In this document: one piece after another, positions 23,186 through 62,990 of the stretch
Layout of the letters: every line of letters starts with the position of its first letter
Position numbering within the stretch: the first letter of the stretch is position 1
NCBI GenBank assembly: GCA_001799565.1
Contig: MGTS01000021.1
Span: forward strand, 95,984-159,983
DNA from: Elusimicrobia bacterium GWA2_51_34
Lineage (GTDB): Bacteria > Elusimicrobiota > Elusimicrobia > Elusimicrobiales > UBA9959
Direction of reading: 5' to 3'
Length of the DNA stretch: 64,000 bases
Position numbers and translations under genes: made by a program
The notes under the pieces: model-generated
Databases searched by the model: none
What the model saw: the letters and a program-made list of their open reading frames with translations, nothing else
Told to the model about the DNA's origin: nothing

Positions 23186-23276
23186 GGTTACCGGTTACCG
23201 GTTACTGGTTACTGGTTACTGGTTACTGGTTACTGGTTACTGGTTACTGGTTACTGGTTACTGGTTACCGGTCACT
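23186..23276. repeat. Tandem heptamer array, 13 units of GGTTACT/GGTTACC
   Basis: Thirteen contiguous 7-bp units, mostly GGTTACT, the outer ones GGTTACC and the last GGTCACT. It directly abuts and slightly overlaps the 3' end of the hydrolase gene. No spacer sequences are present, so it is not a CRISPR array. The rest of 22985-23185 holds no supported gene. Confidence 0.95.
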
Positions 23277-24101
23277 GAGCGCCGCTTCGGCCTTCACTTT
23301 CCACTTCATACCCGCTGTCTCTTCCATCAAAGTCGCTCCTGCTCCGGAGAACATATTCACCCCGTGCCCTGAAACGCCCTGCCGGAAAGTGATTTTTCCG
23401 CCATCGTCGGACCCCCCGGGCTCTTTGGCGGGAAGCTTTTGGGCATTGGCCGCCTCAAAAAGACGCAGGGAACTTTGCCAGGCGTAAGAATCGTCAGGAG
23501 AGGCAGCCAAAAGCAGAGCGAAAGGCAGCGAACGATGAAAATACTCCTCAATGCCTACGCCTGCGTAAACAAGCCCCGGAGAAAGCATTATTACCGCGGC
23601 CGGCTTAAGTGAATAGTCAACCGCCGCTTTTAAAACCAGATTCGCCCCCACGCTGGCTCCGCAAAGCACGATATTTGAGGCCGGAATCTTTCTTTTTTTC
23701 AGCCAGGAAACAGCGGCTACAATGTCTTTGGCGGCCGCGTTCCAGTCCCCCGCGCCAAAAGTCCTGTAATCCGTTTTTTTACCCGCGCACTCAAGGCTTT
23801 GGCCGTGTCCCCGCAGGTCAAGCGTCAGCCAGCCCAAACCCCGCGTCTTAAGCAGTTTTTCAAACGGGCCCCATTCGCCTTTACCCGATCCCAAGCCGTG
23901 AACATTTATAAAAACAGGGTTCCCTTTGGCGGGCGCCCCGTAAGAGGCCGCTATAAGGCATCCGTCCGCGGTTTTCAAAAGGATATTCTCAGTCGCGGAC
24001 AACGCCAGAGGCCCGCGTCCGCCTGAGGCGGACAGTGTCTCCGCCGCGCTCAAAAATCCGAACGGAAGAAGGAGTAAAATATGGAAAATTATTATTTTCA
24101 T
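23265..24101 (-). CDS. Exported alpha/beta hydrolase
   Basis: 278 residues with a signal peptide (MKIIIFHILLLLPFGFLSAA). Fold landmarks: INVHGLGSGKGEW (oxyanion region), LDLRGHGQS and the nucleophile elbow CGASVGAN; the late GHGVNMF is the probable catalytic His. The substrate cannot be predicted. Residues about 21-37, right after the signal peptide, are encoded by a 50-nt P2 element read in antisense (SASGGRGPLALSAT). The last codons and the stop lie in the heptamer array. The ATG at 24101 is chosen because it starts the signal peptide. Confidence 0.85.
   Translation of the reverse strand: MKIIIFHILLLLPFGFLSAAETLSASGGRGPLALSATENILLKTADGCLIAASYGAPAKGNPVFINVHGLGSGKGEWGPFEKLLKTRGLGWLTLDLRGHGQSLECAGKKTDYRTFGAGDWNAAAKDIVAAVSWLKKRKIPASNIVLCGASVGANLVLKAAVDYSLKPAAVIMLSPGLVYAGVGIEEYFHRSLPFALLLAASPDDSYAWQSSLRLFEAANAQKLPAKEPGGSDDGGKITFRQGVSGHGVNMFSGAGATLMEETAGMKWKVKAEAALSDR
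23992..24041 (+). repeat. P2 element (50 nt) in the hydrolase gene, antisense to it
   Basis: This segment matches 30361-30410 at 47 of 50 positions. It contains the palindrome GTCCGCCTGAGGCGGAC. It sits in frame just after the signal-peptide codons. Confidence 0.9.
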
Positions 24102-30801: not shown

Positions 30802-31841
30802 AACTGACGCCTGAAGCCGTGGCGGAACTCACCGGAGGCGAACTGTCAGGCCCCCGTGAAAGTTTTAAAATAACCGGGGCGGCCACGCTTGAAAAAGCCG
30901 GGCCCGGAGACCTGGCGTTCCTCGCGGACCCGAAACACACTCTTCTCGCCGCCCGCTCAAACGCGGGATGCCTGCTCGCCGGCCCCAATGAGGAGCAGGC
31001 TCTGAAAAATTTCAAGGGAACGCTGATTTTAGTTAAAAATCCGAAACTCGCTTTTGCCCTGGCGCTTACGGCTTTGGAGCGTGAACTGCGCCCGACTAAG
31101 ACGGACTTTCAGCACTCCTCGGCTGTTGTAAGCATAACGGCGCGGCTTGGAAAAGATATTTACATCGGCCCTTTGGCCGTTATTGAAGACTACGCCGTTA
31201 TAGGCGACGGCGCCTGCATCGGCGCTCAATGCTTTGTGGGCGCGAAAGCAAAAATAGGCCCCAATACCCGCCTTTACCCGGGCGTGAAAGTACTGGACAA
31301 CTGTGAAATAGGAGAACGCTGCATCCTGCACGCCGGAGCTGTTGTAGGGGCGGACGGCTACGGCTACACAAGCGACGGCGGACTGCATAAGAAAATCCCC
31401 CAGCTGGGCAGGGTAATTGTGGGCTCCGATGTTGAAATAGGAGCCAACTCAACCATAGACAGAGCGGCTCTTGACGCCACTGTGATAGGCGACGGGACAA
31501 AAATTGACAACCTGGTGCACCTGGCTCACAATGTAAGAGTGGGGAAGAACTGCCTTATAATGGCGCAGACAGGCGTGGCGGGATCAGCCGCCATAGGCGA
31601 CAGCGCGATAATAGCCGGACAGGTCGCTATCTCCGACCATGTAACGATAGGCGAAAATACGGTGGTAATGGGTAAAACCGGAGTTATCTCGGATTTGGGC
31701 CCGAATCAGATAGTTTTCGGACACCTGGCAAGACCCCGGGCGCAGGCCATGAGAATAGAGGCCATTCTTTCAAACCTTCCGAAAATGCACGCAGCCATCC
31801 ACAAAATAAAAAAACACCTGGGCCTGCAGGAAAAAGGGTAG
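30798..31841 (+). CDS. lpxD: UDP-3-O-acylglucosamine N-acyltransferase
   Basis: 347 residues. N-terminal uridine-binding domain (about 1-100), then a left-handed beta-helix of hexapeptide repeats (IGPLAVIEDYAVIGDGACIG and following). NLVHLAHNVRVGKNCLI contains the catalytic His of LpxD, and the C-terminal helix ends QAMRIEAILSNLPKM. It adds the second acyl chain in lipid A synthesis using acyl-ACP. Coupled to ompH by a 4-base overlap, the usual bamA-ompH-lpxD order of diderms. Confidence 0.96.
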   Translation: MKLTPEAVAELTGGELSGPRESFKITGAATLEKAGPGDLAFLADPKHTLLAARSNAGCLLAGPNEEQALKNFKGTLILVKNPKLAFALALTALERELRPTKTDFQHSSAVVSITARLGKDIYIGPLAVIEDYAVIGDGACIGAQCFVGAKAKIGPNTRLYPGVKVLDNCEIGERCILHAGAVVGADGYGYTSDGGLHKKIPQLGRVIVGSDVEIGANSTIDRAALDATVIGDGTKIDNLVHLAHNVRVGKNCLIMAQTGVAGSAAIGDSAIIAGQVAISDHVTIGENTVVMGKTGVISDLGPNQIVFGHLARPRAQAMRIEAILSNLPKMHAAIHKIKKHLGLQEKG

Positions 31842-31895
31842 AGGGTTCAGGGGAGAGGGTGCAGAAATAAGAAACTCCTTTACCCTATACCCTGT
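31842..31895. repeat. P4 word palindrome (AGGGT words)
   Basis: Left arm of AGGGTTC/AGGGGAGAGGGT words, loop with GAAATAAGAAACTCC, right arm TACCCTATACCCT. The loop and part of the left arm match 13992-14045 in inverted orientation. It fills the lpxD-lpxC spacer. Confidence 0.65.
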
Positions 31896-31903
31896 TAATT
31901 TTG

Positions 31904-32761
31904 ATGCTAAGAAAAACGATAAAAGAACCCGTAACTCTTGAGGGCATAGGCCTGCACAAGGGGTCGCCTTCCCGGGTAACCTTTCTGCCTGCCGGAGCTG
32001 CGTCAGGCCTACGCTTTATAAGCCCCCTTTTTACGGCCCCTATCCCGGCGCGTCTTGAAAATGTAACCGGCACGGCGCGCGGCACTAATATCGGCGACGG
32101 AAAAACCGTCATTTACACTGTTGAGCATTTGCTTTCCGCCGCGGCCGGCCTTGGCATTGACGATCTGGATATTGAAATTTCGGGCTGCGAACCTCCGGCC
32201 ATGGACGGTTCGGCCCTGCCATTTGCCAACGCCCTGCTTCGTGCCGGCCTGGCTGAGAAACCCGGCACCAGTCGATCGCGCGCCCGCCTGACCGCGCCGG
32301 TGGAATTTTCAAAAGACGCAACACGCTACCGCGCGGCGCCCTCTGCTTGCGGCGCGTCCTTCAGGCTGGTTTATGACTACCCGCACCGGCTGGTGGGCAG
32401 GCAGGAGGTGGAATTTTGCCTTTCACCGGAAGTCTACCTCAGGGAAATAGCCCCGGCGCGCACCTTCGCCTTCAGCCATGAAATAAAGGCCCTTAAAGCG
32501 GCAGGCCTCGCTTTGGGCGGTTCCCTTGAGAACGCGGTGGTAATAAACGAAAATGAAATAACGGCTCTCAACGGCTTGCGCTTTGCTGATGAATTCGCCC
32601 GGCACAAACTGCTTGACCTTATAGGCGACCTGGCGCTGACGGGTCTGTTGTTTGAAGAACTTAGCATTGAAACCGAACGCCCGGGCCACGCGGGCAATAT
32701 TAATTTTGCTAAACTGTTAACAGCTCATAGCGCTTTGCGCGATGAGCGCCATAAGCCGTAA
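31904..32761 (+). CDS. lpxC: UDP-3-O-acyl-N-acetylglucosamine deacetylase
   Basis: 285 residues. LpxC landmarks: LEGIGLHKGSP, VEHLLSAAAGLGIDDLDIE (first zinc His), CEPPAMDGSALPF, ARTFAFSHEI and FARHKLLDLIGDLAL (second zinc His and Asp). It is the committed zinc-dependent step of lipid A synthesis and stands alone, not fused to FabZ as in some phyla. The ATG at 31904 has no visible ribosome site; a P4 element immediately precedes it. The last codons run into the next P4 element. Confidence 0.95.
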   Translation: MLRKTIKEPVTLEGIGLHKGSPSRVTFLPAGAASGLRFISPLFTAPIPARLENVTGTARGTNIGDGKTVIYTVEHLLSAAAGLGIDDLDIEISGCEPPAMDGSALPFANALLRAGLAEKPGTSRSRARLTAPVEFSKDATRYRAAPSACGASFRLVYDYPHRLVGRQEVEFCLSPEVYLREIAPARTFAFSHEIKALKAAGLALGGSLENAVVINENEITALNGLRFADEFARHKLLDLIGDLALTGLLFEELSIETERPGHAGNINFAKLLTAHSALRDERHKP

Positions 32762-32940
32762 ATTTTGATACGGCTATTGCCATAGGCCTTAAGGGCGCCG
32801 CGCCCGCCATAAGCCATATGCTTTAGGCCATAGTTATAAGGAAACTCCGAAAAAGCATATGGCCTACAGTCTAACGCGTATGGCGTTTTTCTGCCTATGG
32901 CGCATGGCTTATGGCAGGCAATGTTCAATTGATAAGGCTA
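32748..32940. repeat. P4 word palindrome (CATAAGCC/CATAGGCC words)
   Basis: Words such as GCCATAAGCC, GCCATAGGCC and GCCATATG in the left arm; their complements (CATATGGCC, TATGGCGTTTTTCTGCC, GGCTTATGGC) in the right arm, around an A-rich centre (AAGGAAACTCC). It spans the end of lpxC and the lpxC-fabZ spacer. The same vocabulary is used at 41704-41834 and 53215-53355. Confidence 0.8.
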
Positions 32941-32945
32941 TTATT

Positions 32946-33407
32946 ATGAACGAAACCACGCCCCCTGTTTATAAACCGGTAAGGATTATTTCCTGTGAGG
33001 AAATTTTAAAGATCATACCCCACCGCTATCCCTTCCTGCTGGTGGACCGGGTGGAAATAATAGAAGAAACCAAACGCTGCGTGGGAGTTAAATGCGTCAG
33101 CGGCAACGAACTTTATTTTCACGGTCATTTTCCGGAAAAACCTATCATGCCCGGCGTGCTGATCATTGAGGGCATGGCCCAGACTGCAGCCGCCATGATG
33201 ATGAGCCTGCCGGAAATCAAGGGACATTTTGTTCTCTTCGCGGGTATAAGAGCGGCTAAATTCCGCCGGCAGGTAGTGCCGGGGGACGTGCTTAAATATG
33301 ATGTGGAAATGCTGCGCTTTAAAGGCAAGATGGGCAAAGTGAGCGGCCGCGCCTTTGTTGAAAACGCTCTGGCGGCTGAAGCAGAACTCACTTTCGCGGT
33401 GGACTGA
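32946..33407 (+). CDS. fabZ: 3-hydroxyacyl-ACP dehydratase
   Basis: 153 residues. Hot-dog fold with IPHRYPFLLVDRV and HFPEKPIMPGVLIIEGMAQ (catalytic His and Glu). It dehydrates beta-hydroxyacyl-ACP in fatty-acid elongation and, beside lpxC and lpxA, balances membrane lipid and lipid A. Start at 32946 gives the standard length; ATAAGG stands upstream as a weak ribosome site. Confidence 0.95.
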   Translation: MNETTPPVYKPVRIISCEEILKIIPHRYPFLLVDRVEIIEETKRCVGVKCVSGNELYFHGHFPEKPIMPGVLIIEGMAQTAAAMMMSLPEIKGHFVLFAGIRAAKFRRQVVPGDVLKYDVEMLRFKGKMGKVSGRAFVENALAAEAELTFAVD

Positions 33408-33410
33408 CGG

Positions 33411-33536
33411 CAAATGAAAGGTTACGGGTGGCAGGTTACAGGTAACAGGCGGAGGATTGGGAAATTTAGCAGTCTGCAGCCTGCTGCCGTATACCTGCAA
33501 CCTGTCGTCTGAAACCTTAATATTGGACACTGAACA
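33411..33536. repeat. P4 word palindrome (CAGGTTACAGG words)
   Basis: Left arm GGCAGGTTACAGGTAACAGG, right arm ACCTGCAACCTGTCG, with a centre containing AGCAGTCTGCAGCCTGCTG. It occupies the fabZ-lpxA spacer; lpxA keeps a CGGAGA ribosome site after it. Confidence 0.65.
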
Positions 33537-35204: not shown

Positions 35205-35310
35205 AAAGCGAATAGGGATTAGCAAAATTAGGGATGGAGATGGATCTTTATAGCTTTTCTATTTTCATTCGCTACTTCCCTGCTTCACTATTTCGCTACT
35301 TCGCTATCTT
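35205..35310. repeat. P4 word palindrome (AGCGAATAGGGA words)
   Basis: Left arm AAGCGAATAGGGATTAGC and AATTAGGGATGG; right arm CATTCGCTACTTCCCTGC and ATTTCGCTACTTCGCT. It fills the lpxI-acyltransferase spacer and runs up to the ATG. Confidence 0.75.
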
Positions 35311-38425: not shown

Positions 38426-38426
38426 G

Positions 38427-38640
38427 CGCGCAAGGCGCGCTGTCACAAGTTTCAAGTCACAAGTCTCAAGCGGAAAGTTATGCGGGCGCCGGCAGCAAAT
38501 AACGATTAAGCGTGAATTACAGGTAGCGGGCAGAGATCAGTTTTACGACTCTAGATTTTTTATAGTTGTAAGCAGCCTGAGCCCTGTCACCTGCCGCCTC
38601 TTACTTGTGACCTGTGACTTGTGCTCTTGTGACTTGCCAA
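38427..38640. repeat. P4 word palindrome (CACAAGTC words) with GCGCGC hairpin
   Basis: Starts with the mini-hairpin AGCGCGCAAGGCGCGCT right after the stop codon. Left arm CACAAGTTTCAAGTCACAAG, right arm TTGTGACCTGTGACTTGTGC and following, with about 120 bases between. It ends two bases before the lpxB ATG. Confidence 0.85.
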
Positions 38641-38642
38641 AT

Positions 38643-39791: not shown

Positions 39792-39905
39792 GAATTGGCA
39801 GGTTCAACGGTTCAGGGTTCACGGTTTAAGATTATTTTCTCCGCGATTTTCTTGCGTTCCCTGATTCCCAACCGCTGAACCGTGAACCTGAAAAGCAACC
39901 GATGC
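39792..39905. repeat. P4 word palindrome (GGTTCACGG words)
   Basis: Left arm GGCAGGTTCAACGGTTCAGG and GTTCACGG; right arm CCGCTGAACCGTGAACCTG, with an AT-rich centre. It fills the lpxB-msbA spacer. Confidence 0.8.
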
Positions 39906-41703: not shown

Positions 41704-41834
41704 CCATAGTTTTGGATACAGCTAGTGCCATAAGCCGTAAGTTTTGATACGGCTATTGCCATATGGCATATGGCGCGGCTGGAACAACCGCATATGTCCT
41801 ATGGCTTAAAGCTTATGGCAATAGATTTAGCGTT
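41704..41834. repeat. P4 word palindrome (CATAAGCC/CATATGGC words)
   Basis: GCCATAAGCCGTAAGTTTTG then ATACGGCTATTGCCATATGG in the left part, CATATGTCCTATGGC and GCTTATGGCAATAG in the right. The opening phrase GCCATAAGCCGTAA(G/A)TTTTG also occurs at 32748. It ends at the ZIP gene ATG. Confidence 0.8.
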
Positions 41835-42560
41835 ATGATCTATCTTTTCAGCCTTATCGCGGTAGCTTTCACAATAATCGGCGCGGGGCTTACCGCCAGA
41901 TTCGGCGGCGTGAACAAACGCCTGCTTTCGCGCACGCTGGCTTTTTCAGCGGGTGTTCTGCTGTCCGCGGCTTTCCTTGACATTTTTCCCGAAGCGTGGC
42001 GGCTGAACCCCGGCGCCGCGGCCTACGGCTGCCTGGCGGCGCTGCTCTCCCTTTTCTCACTAGAAAATTTCACAGCCATGAATTCCTGCAGCGAATACAT
42101 GGAAGAGTGCAAGGTTGATAAACACGCGCTGGGCGCCTTCGCTTTGGCCGCCCTTACGGTGCACTCGGTGCTTGACGGTTTCAATATCGCCGTCGGCTTT
42201 AAAACAGGCTCGCTTGCCGGCTTCAATATTTCCCTGGGCGTTATTCTGCACAAGCTCGCCGACGGCATAGCGCTGGTTTCGCTTCTGCTCCATTCAGGCC
42301 GCACCGTTAAACGGGCCATGTATTTAAGTCTGCTGCTGGCACTTGCCACGCCCCTGGGGGCTCTTATAGTACAGCCCTTTTTTCTGAGCGTAGATCCCTG
42401 GACCGAGTCTTTTCTGCTCGGCATAAGCGGAGGCTCTTTTCTATACATCGCCATGGCCGATATTTTACCGGGCCTGCATAAAACTTATGACCGGCTTACC
42501 CCGGTTTTTTACGCCCTCGGCTACGCCGCGGTAATTGCAATAACCGCGCTTGGGGAATAG
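41835..42560 (+). CDS. ZIP-family divalent metal transporter
   Basis: 241 residues with about eight membrane helices. VHSVLDGFNIAVGF and LHKLADGIALVSLL are the two His-containing metal-site helices (TM4 and TM5) of ZIP proteins. Likely imports Zn or Fe. The ATG at 41835 follows a P4 element and has no visible ribosome site. The stop is followed directly by a GCGCGCAAAGCGCGC hairpin. Confidence 0.9.
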   Translation: MIYLFSLIAVAFTIIGAGLTARFGGVNKRLLSRTLAFSAGVLLSAAFLDIFPEAWRLNPGAAAYGCLAALLSLFSLENFTAMNSCSEYMEECKVDKHALGAFALAALTVHSVLDGFNIAVGFKTGSLAGFNISLGVILHKLADGIALVSLLLHSGRTVKRAMYLSLLLALATPLGALIVQPFFLSVDPWTESFLLGISGGSFLYIAMADILPGLHKTYDRLTPVFYALGYAAVIAITALGE

Positions 42561-42561
42561 C

Positions 42562-42780
42562 GCGCAAAGCGCGCTGTTACAAGAGCACAAGTCACAGGAG
42601 CACAGGTCACAAGCAAGAGGAGAAAGAAGACGCAAGAACGCGGGCACATAAATTCAGAAACAGATAACAGACGTGTGACGCAGTTGAAAGAGAATTGTGA
42701 CTTGTGTCCCTGCGCTCTTGTGATCTATTCCCTCTGACTTGTGCTCCTGTGACCTGTGTTCTTGTGCTCCTGCAACTTAC
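42562..42780. repeat. P4 word palindrome (CACAGGTCACAAG words) with GCGCGC hairpin
   Basis: Opens with GCGCGCAAAGCGCGC after the stop. Left arm ACAAGAGCACAAGTCACAGG and following; right arm GACTTGTGCTCCTGTGACC and following. Same vocabulary as 38427-38640. The arms are about 45 nt each. Confidence 0.85.
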
Positions 42781-44226: not shown

Positions 44227-44362
44227 CGCGCAAGGCGCGCGGCAATTTAGAGGCGCAGCAGTTTAGCAACCCAGAGGCATAGTCACTTAGAAGTTGGAAT
44301 TATTTTAATTTAATCTTTCGCTCCGCTATGCCTCCACGCATCTACGCCTCTATGCATCTGCT
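44225..44362. repeat. P4 word palindrome (AGAGGCGCAG words) with GCGCGC hairpin
   Basis: GCGCGCAAGGCGCGC follows the relA-type stop codon. Left arm TTAGAGGCGCAGCAG and CCAGAGGCATAGTC; right arm CTATGCCTCCACGC and ATCTACGCCTCTATGC. It ends at the GGQ protein ATG. Confidence 0.8.
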
Positions 44363-51902: not shown

Positions 51903-53355
<1,453 letters not shown>

Positions 53356-62795: not shown

Positions 62796-62825
62796 AAGGT
62801 TATTTTACAAAAGTTTATAACCATT

Positions 62826-62990
62826 CAGGCGGGCAGGCTGTAGGCGGGTAGCAACGGAAAGTAAAAGAAAGCGGCTGAAAGCCACAGAAAGTAAGAGGGC
62901 CTCATAAAAACTGTTTTCTTGCTTTCAGTTGCTTTCTGCAGCATTCAATAGCCTTCCGTTGCCATAAGTGATAACCGCCTGCCGCCTAAA
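62826..62990. repeat. P4 word palindrome (GGAAAGTAAAAG words)
   Basis: Left arm GGCGGGCAGGCTGTAGGCG, GCAACGGAAAGT, GGCTGAAAGCC; right arm GCTTTCAGTTGCTTTC, CCTTCCGTTGCC and ACCGCCTGCCGCC in inverse order. It separates the divergent prfB and chorismate mutase genes. Confidence 0.8.

Follow-up and report, generated by a model that had tools for sequence, protein, structure and literature searches.

Word palindromes in the spacers of an Elusimicrobia lipid A region are probably copies of a small mobile element with S23 or GxxExxY genes

The window, that is, the whole 64,000-nucleotide stretch of DNA analysed here (G000:C21:95984-159983), belongs to a genome of 2.63 Mb that is 97.8% complete (G000, the window genome) and whose closest lpxB relatives are Elusimicrobia metagenome assemblies. 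The genes of the lipid A region in the window are co-directional, with spacers that run from the upstream stop codon to near the next start codon. In the spacer upstream of lpxB (38426-38642), the stop codon is followed by a short hairpin, an array of repeated words, an interior of about 118 nt and the complementary words:

38426..38440, no strand assigned: GCGCGCAAGGCGCGC hairpin, lying between the stop codon and the 5' arm; similar hairpins abut the arms at 42562 and 44225
38442..38470, + strand: 5' word arm of the palindrome upstream of lpxB, dialect CACAAGT (GTCACAA GTTTCAA GTCACAA GTCTCAA G)
38471..38588, no strand assigned: interior of this copy, without a gene
38589..38636, + strand: 3' word arm, complementary to 38442-38470 (CTTGTGA CCTGTGA CTTGTGC ...)

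The inverted-repeat score of 38427-38640 was 54, compared to a mean of 25 after shuffling (p = 0.002; 1000 dinucleotide shuffles). A check of RNA structure, as proposed in an earlier annotation of this DNA made by reading the letters alone (the first-pass annotation), gave a fold z score of -2.9 and an equally good fold in 0 of 200 shuffles. Across relatives, the site upstream of lpxB holds palindromes with clearly different words in six species (p ≤ 0.01), while in several other species the spacer consists of a few bases only and has no palindrome. As a separate observation, GCGCGCAARGCGCGC hairpins occur at 38426-38440, 42560-42575 and 44227-44241, each right after a stop codon and abutting word arms, and an orthologue is found also in the related genome G001.

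The first-pass annotation had listed this spacer together with ten others as being filled by palindromes made of short words. These ten, with the p value of the inverted-repeat score against 1000 dinucleotide shuffles for each spacer, are:

31836..31894, + strand: short palindrome, dialect AGGGTAG; p = 0.12 alone; the first word includes the TAG stop codon of the upstream gene
32748..32950, + strand: palindrome or palindromes, dialect CCATAAG; p = 0.008
33421..33530, + strand: palindrome, dialect CAGGTTA; p < 0.001
35207..35306, + strand: palindrome, words GCGAATA / TTCGCTAC; p = 0.18 alone
39799..39890, + strand: palindrome, dialect GGTTCA(CG); p = 0.12 alone
41704..41834, + strand: palindrome, dialect CCATAAG; p = 0.06
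42579..42765, + strand: palindrome, dialect CACAAGT/GAGCACAAG; p < 0.001
44246..44362, + strand: word arrays GAGGCRYAGNAGTTTAG; p = 0.66 as an inverted repeat; the dialect is that of the S23-bearing element G000:C33:24657
53215..53350, + strand: palindrome, dialect CCATAAG; p = 0.08
62824..62990, + strand: palindrome of 10-nt words (GCAACGGAAA); p < 0.001; core 62855-62975; one of about 30 near-full dispersed copies

Taken individually, 5 of the 11 listed spacers reached p < 0.01 (32748, 33411, 38427, 42562 and 62826), two gave p = 0.06-0.08 (41704 and 53215), three gave p = 0.12-0.18 (31842, 35205 and 39792), and 44225 gave p = 0.66. Fisher combination of the 11 values gave p of about 1e-9, and five further long spacers that were not in the list gave p = 0.2-0.7. 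All listed copies sit directly after stop codons between co-directional genes, and the copies in the window carry no gene.

A genome-wide scan of 822 kb, or 31% of the genome, found 379 segments of 400 nt scoring at least 60 as inverted repeats against 7 in the shuffled sequence. The word palindromes described in the first-pass annotation are real; its account of the individual spacers is confirmed in part. Significant arm periodicity of 6-9 nt was present in 90 of 196 distinct inverted repeats scoring at least 52, with period 7 in 59 of these 90 and period 8 in 26. Autocorrelation in the periodic arms peaked at 7 nt (0.44), 8 nt (0.36), 14 nt (0.39), 16 nt and 21 nt (0.38), the background being about 0.24. 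Most words are 7 or 8 nt long (10 nt at 62826), and the 5' arm is purine-rich in 75 of the 90 periodic palindromes and in 48/48 alignable gene-bearing ones. We confirmed that degenerate words are repeated in one arm with their complements in the other and that vocabularies vary; the description of these vocabularies as locus-specific was too strong. When grouped by eye, the words fall into about 15 dialects that each recur at several loci, including CACAAGT, GCTNGTAG, CCATAAG, AGTCTGAG, AGGGTAG, AGTAACC, AGTGGTT, AGTCAGA, CAGGTTA and AGGCTGT. Since dialects are common to several loci, what looked like a vocabulary per locus is really a dialect per element family.

The pattern CAAGTCACAAGTC occurs 25 times in the genome, compared to 0 times for its reversed control. 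For the 62826 element, 49 matches were found in the genome, about 30 of them near-full copies at 72-89% identity, and the element shares its dialect with an S23-bearing element at G000:C33:44119. Similarity between 5' arms was found 305 times in the same orientation and 14 times in the inverted one, and the GGTTACT array at 23186 accounts for about half of these 14 cases. This array (23186-23277) is a pure microsatellite of 13 GGTTACT copies, opposite in sense to the AGTAACC dialect arms elsewhere. We also noticed a common core resembling AAGGAACTCCTT in the loops of three dialects, AGGGTAG, CCATAAG and GCTNGTAG (31842 and 32748 in the window, G000:C42:170644 and others).

A scan of 2309 open reading frames of the window genome identified S23 and GxxExxY as the genes whose own flanking arms are word arrays; the other high scorers were CRISPR repeats, unrelated hairpins and genes lying between two neighbouring elements. 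The S23 proteins of the window genome match PF05635, and one was matched to structure 2GSC, reported as a homopentamer. There are seven S23 genes in this genome, each with a different dialect, and several of those dialects recur as gene-less copies. Complementary word-array flanks (shuffle p < 0.01) were found at 23 of 27 S23 loci in the family of the window genome and at 22 of 30 in other phyla, that is, at 45 of 57 in total, with significant arm complementarity absent at the other 12. Random genome places served as the control for flank complementarity; lpxB is an imperfect control, its neighbours holding elements too. Complementary arms surround 9 of 10 S23 genes on named plasmids, mostly cyanobacterial, and at the Pseudanabaena S23 the words run in the same sense on both flanks. 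Metagenome assembly error is excluded as a cause because the loci include complete plasmids of cultured strains. The element architecture is thus present in several phyla, and phyla are intermixed in the S23 tree.

Within the family, genes for the TIGR02436/PF05635 four-helix bundle were detected in 18 of 41 genomes, and none of them in gut relatives (search of 41 genomes). In the gut relatives, S23, GxxExxY and the CAAGTCACAAGTC word pair were all absent in gene and word-pattern searches, on which this comparison rests, periodicity density being blurred by GC-rich coding sequence in other phyla. GxxExxY genes lie between word arms at 6/6 loci of the family as judged by eye, and 4 of 5 intact ones gave a shuffle p < 0.01. 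Orthologous spacers in two congeneric genomes have different words, one of them with an intact GxxExxY gene between GATTACA arms, and decayed remains were seen at another site; in G001, the spacer orthologous to the 38427 spacer holds decayed GxxExxY remains between GATTACA arms. The more similar two S23 proteins are, the more alike their arm dialects tend to be, across genomes and at non-orthologous sites (Mantel rho 0.25, p = 0.001), a correlation to which species relatedness may contribute. At two of the S23 loci, L136 (G004) and L143 (G001), the S23 reading frame stays open across the 3' arm and is joined in frame to the gene downstream (about 440 aa).

In a blastn search, the locus of T. 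variabilis ATCC 29413 matched plasmids that have the same flanks and lack the element. Two kinds of insertion were seen directly: that of a gene-less copy and, by comparing a filled with an empty site, that of an S23-bearing element with a 5-bp target duplication. Plasmid C of T. variabilis ATCC 29413 (filled) and N. linckia NIES-25 (empty) are 98.6% identical and differ by a 428-bp insertion that consists of both arms and S23 and is bounded by a duplication of GTAAT; Scytonema NIES-4073 has the same insertion and the same duplication. In Nostoc sp. N6 pNPM1, a 182-bp gene-less word palindrome of the same dialect (inverted-repeat score 96, compared to a best of 56 in 500 shuffles) has inserted into an S23 gene of which two other plasmids have an intact version. 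An S23 element lies between cas10 and cmr3 in Picosynechococcus PCC 7003, and the PCC 7002 site is empty. One contig of genome G043 carries two S23 elements at a distance of 5 kb; their S23 genes and inner arms match at 87% identity over 426 nt, and their flanks are unrelated. A clean target duplication was read at one site only (GTAAT, cyanobacterial plasmids); a second Nostoc site, where the junction contains an indel, is compatible with an (A)TTCTA duplication, and at the nested insertion of 182 bp any duplication spans at most 1 bp. Mobility, which the first-pass annotation had missed, is thus a direct observation in cyanobacteria, and we infer it for the window genome, where gene-less families are dispersed. 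No recognised transposase was found within the element. S23 and GxxExxY are no more than candidates for a transposase acting on the ends, and we know of no catalytic activity for S23. As a side observation, S23 elements were found inside CRISPR operons of cyanobacterial plasmids (L271, L275 and L276), at cas6/cas4 or cas10/cmr3 junctions.

The first-pass annotation had proposed that words expand in place by slippage and that the complementarity of the two arms at a locus is preserved by hairpin-templated (quasi-palindrome) correction. Its first half agrees with what we found. In the 62826 family the 3' arm alone has expanded in two copies (about eight tandem TTTCCGTAGC words in L267), and the 5' arm of the Scytonema NIES-4073 insertion is exactly 14 nt, or two words, shorter than that of T. 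variabilis with the 3' arm unchanged. Word number therefore changes in one arm alone, and many dialects are found at one orthologous spacer. The expectation that arms change together among compared strains fails in this same pair, where one arm varies independently of the other, a result that the first-pass annotation had itself named as refuting; such one-arm changes refute templated correction as the main mechanism. Among 24 copies of the 62826 family, the own-arm match was 38.6 compared to 39.4 for the arms of other copies (p = 0.64), RNAalifold gave no covariation support (covariation term +0.54), and the consensus arms retain 11/44 mismatches, which are thus fixed. In 72 elements of six dialects, the own-arm match was 32.07 and the cross match 31.99 (p = 0.63); these elements were chosen by words and not by pairing, since arms chosen by inverted-repeat score would bias toward own. 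In favour of correction, own exceeded cross in one dialect of the six (AGTGGTT), and words changed in both arms between species in S23-bearing elements at orthologous sites (L136/L143 and L137/L154). Correction leaves the genes inside, the target duplication and the dispersed copies unexplained, and we regard it as an unlikely account of the palindromes. Because own arms match no better than arms of the same dialect from other loci, complementarity appears to be inherited with the dialect.

About equally unlikely is that the palindromes are selected intercistronic RNA hairpins, such as terminators, mRNA stabilisers or processing sites, kept for operon regulation. The position of the listed copies directly after stop codons between co-directional genes fits such a role, as does the 38427 RNA, which folds better than all of its shuffles. 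However, no known RNA family except a tRNA was detected in window positions 30000-64000 (Rfam, gathering threshold), the copies lack covariation support, and related species have a different element or none in the same spacer. Genes inside the arms, a target duplication and insertion into a coding gene also argue against this function.

The palindromes could also be substrates of the Y1 transposases of the window genome, in the manner of REP/RAYT or IS200-type systems, given that the hairpins are small and dispersed and that the genome has six Y1_Tnp matches. We consider this highly improbable, because the inverted repeat that flanks one Y1 gene, L237, is of another kind (AGTTAAGGTGACACACAACTTAATT), word arms are absent at the four Y1 loci that were read, and the genes inside word arms are S23 and GxxExxY, not Y1. 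The 5-bp target duplication also speaks against IS200/IS605-type elements, which to our knowledge make none. The AGTTAAGGTGACACACAACTTAATT repeat occurs alone as well (G000:C14:13080 and 14111), as in a RAYT/REP-like system separate from the word palindromes. A retroelement origin, in which S23 as a homologue of the diversity-generating retroelement (DGR) accessory protein Avd would mark elements reverse-transcribed from excised hairpin RNA, is the least credible alternative, since apart from the homology of the PF05635 four-helix bundle family to Avd (PMC10053308) there is no reverse transcriptase (PF00078) in the 97.8% complete genome by a search with positive controls included, no template/variable repeat pair was seen, and the listed word differences are not limited to A positions.

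We therefore favour, with a probability of roughly 0.78, the interpretation that the spacer hairpins are copies of a small mobile element, most of them lacking its gene. A complete element measures about 420 bp and consists of a 5' word arm, one small gene and a 3' word arm, the gene encoding either an S23/IVP four-helix-bundle protein (PF05635, the family whose genes lie within 23S rRNA intervening sequences) or a GxxExxY PD-(D/E)XK nuclease-like protein. The arms, as arrays of 7-, 8- or 10-nt degenerate words that are mostly purine-rich on the 5' side, would together form the stem of a long DNA or RNA hairpin, their complementarity presumably inherited with the dialect and not kept by hairpin-templated copying at each locus. 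Gene-less copies may derive from gene-bearing ones by internal loss and could be moved in trans, as miniature inverted-repeat elements (MITEs) are by transposons. Arm and protein would co-evolve if the protein or a partner recognises the arm words; co-evolution as of a transposase with its ends is the simplest reading of their association. The elements may settle right after a stop codon between co-directional genes because insertions are tolerated there, a tolerance that could resemble that of rRNA helices for intervening sequences, whose stem is cleaved by RNase III.

The first-pass annotation knew of no described family with this behaviour, and we found relations to two. In Coxiella burnetii, the 23S rRNA intervening sequence is bounded by a terminal inverted repeat of 28 bp, with S23p in the loop and a variable number of tandem GACAGAT heptamers next to its start codon; the literature calls this sequence selfish and suggests that it is mobile (PMC4990558). 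Like the intervening sequences of C. burnetii and Leptospira, the elements are about 430 nt in size, have tandem heptamers of variable number and pair their complementary arms into a long stem whose loop contains an S23/IVP gene. Unlike them, they lie between protein genes and not in rRNA, number tens of copies per genome that are mostly gene-less, have many dialects and a second gene type (GxxExxY), and were seen directly to insert with a target duplication. An Rfam scan of 20 S23 loci detected no rRNA and only two tRNAs, so that the elements are not intervening sequences by their defining location, though built alike; the metagenome-assembled window genome contains no assembled 23S.

The second relation is to intergenic heptamer repeats. 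The heptamer arrays of cyanobacterial STRR are reported as regulatory or unexplained. The same has been reported of TAACTGA in Beggiatoaceae (PMC4679880) and of the MTYCTGA and GGGACCG heptamer repeats in Geobacter metallireducens (PMC2700814). Our elements likewise contain intergenic tandem arrays of 7-nt words and their variants; some of the words are themselves similar (AGTAACTGA, GTCAGAAT), and on Nostoc and Trichormus plasmids S23 is embedded in 7-nt arrays of this type. In contrast, the heptamer repeats were reported as direct repeats with proposed regulatory roles, with no link to complementary arms, S23 genes or insertion. The elements also resemble MITEs in that short dispersed gene-less palindromes accompany rarer gene-bearing copies with the same ends and in the target duplication, but their ends are degenerate word arrays of varying number, the gene carried is S23 or GxxExxY, and there is no known transposase. 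REP/REPIN sequences with RAYT are likewise small dispersed extragenic palindromes served by a trans-acting protein, but both repeats and protein differ, and the RAYT-like repeat of the window genome is a separate one. Our literature search found no paper reporting IVP or GxxExxY genes inside such palindromes; subscription journals were mostly outside its coverage, and priority is unproven.

A wider proposal, to which we give somewhat less than even odds, is that a new class of mobile elements, one that has no conventional transposase, takes its specificity from S23/IVP four-helix pentamers and, in parallel, from GxxExxY nucleases. Each protein lineage would recognise its own dialect, the arms evolving with it and gene-less copies being moved in trans, and the 23S rRNA intervening sequences together with many heptamer repeats (STRR, TAACTGA arrays) would be relics of this class. 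The mobile-element interpretation itself offers one explanation for three separate curiosities, namely intergenic heptamer repeats, the widespread, functionally uncharacterised genes annotated as 'four helix bundle protein' or 'GxxExxY protein', and the origin of 23S rRNA intervening sequences, and it predicts that these intervening sequences mark one of the places where a general mobile element lands. Cultured strains are available for a direct test of mobility and protein function, in Trichormus variabilis ATCC 29413 and in the filled and empty sites of Picosynechococcus PCC 7003 and PCC 7002, and if S23 proves to be a mobility factor, this would be a new kind of element.

Two further sequence features of the window genome were recorded. 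The motif AACTRCTCAG / CTGAGYAGTT has 13 sites in the 822 kb scanned, compared to 1 for the reversed control; about half of the sites abut word arms of several dialects, and the motif also adjoins S23/GxxExxY elements in other genomes (L230, L128 and L133). It is possibly a shared outer terminus of the elements. A CRISPR-like array with the palindromic repeat TCCCCACACGTGTGGGGA lies at G000:C7:14805-18110 (L203).
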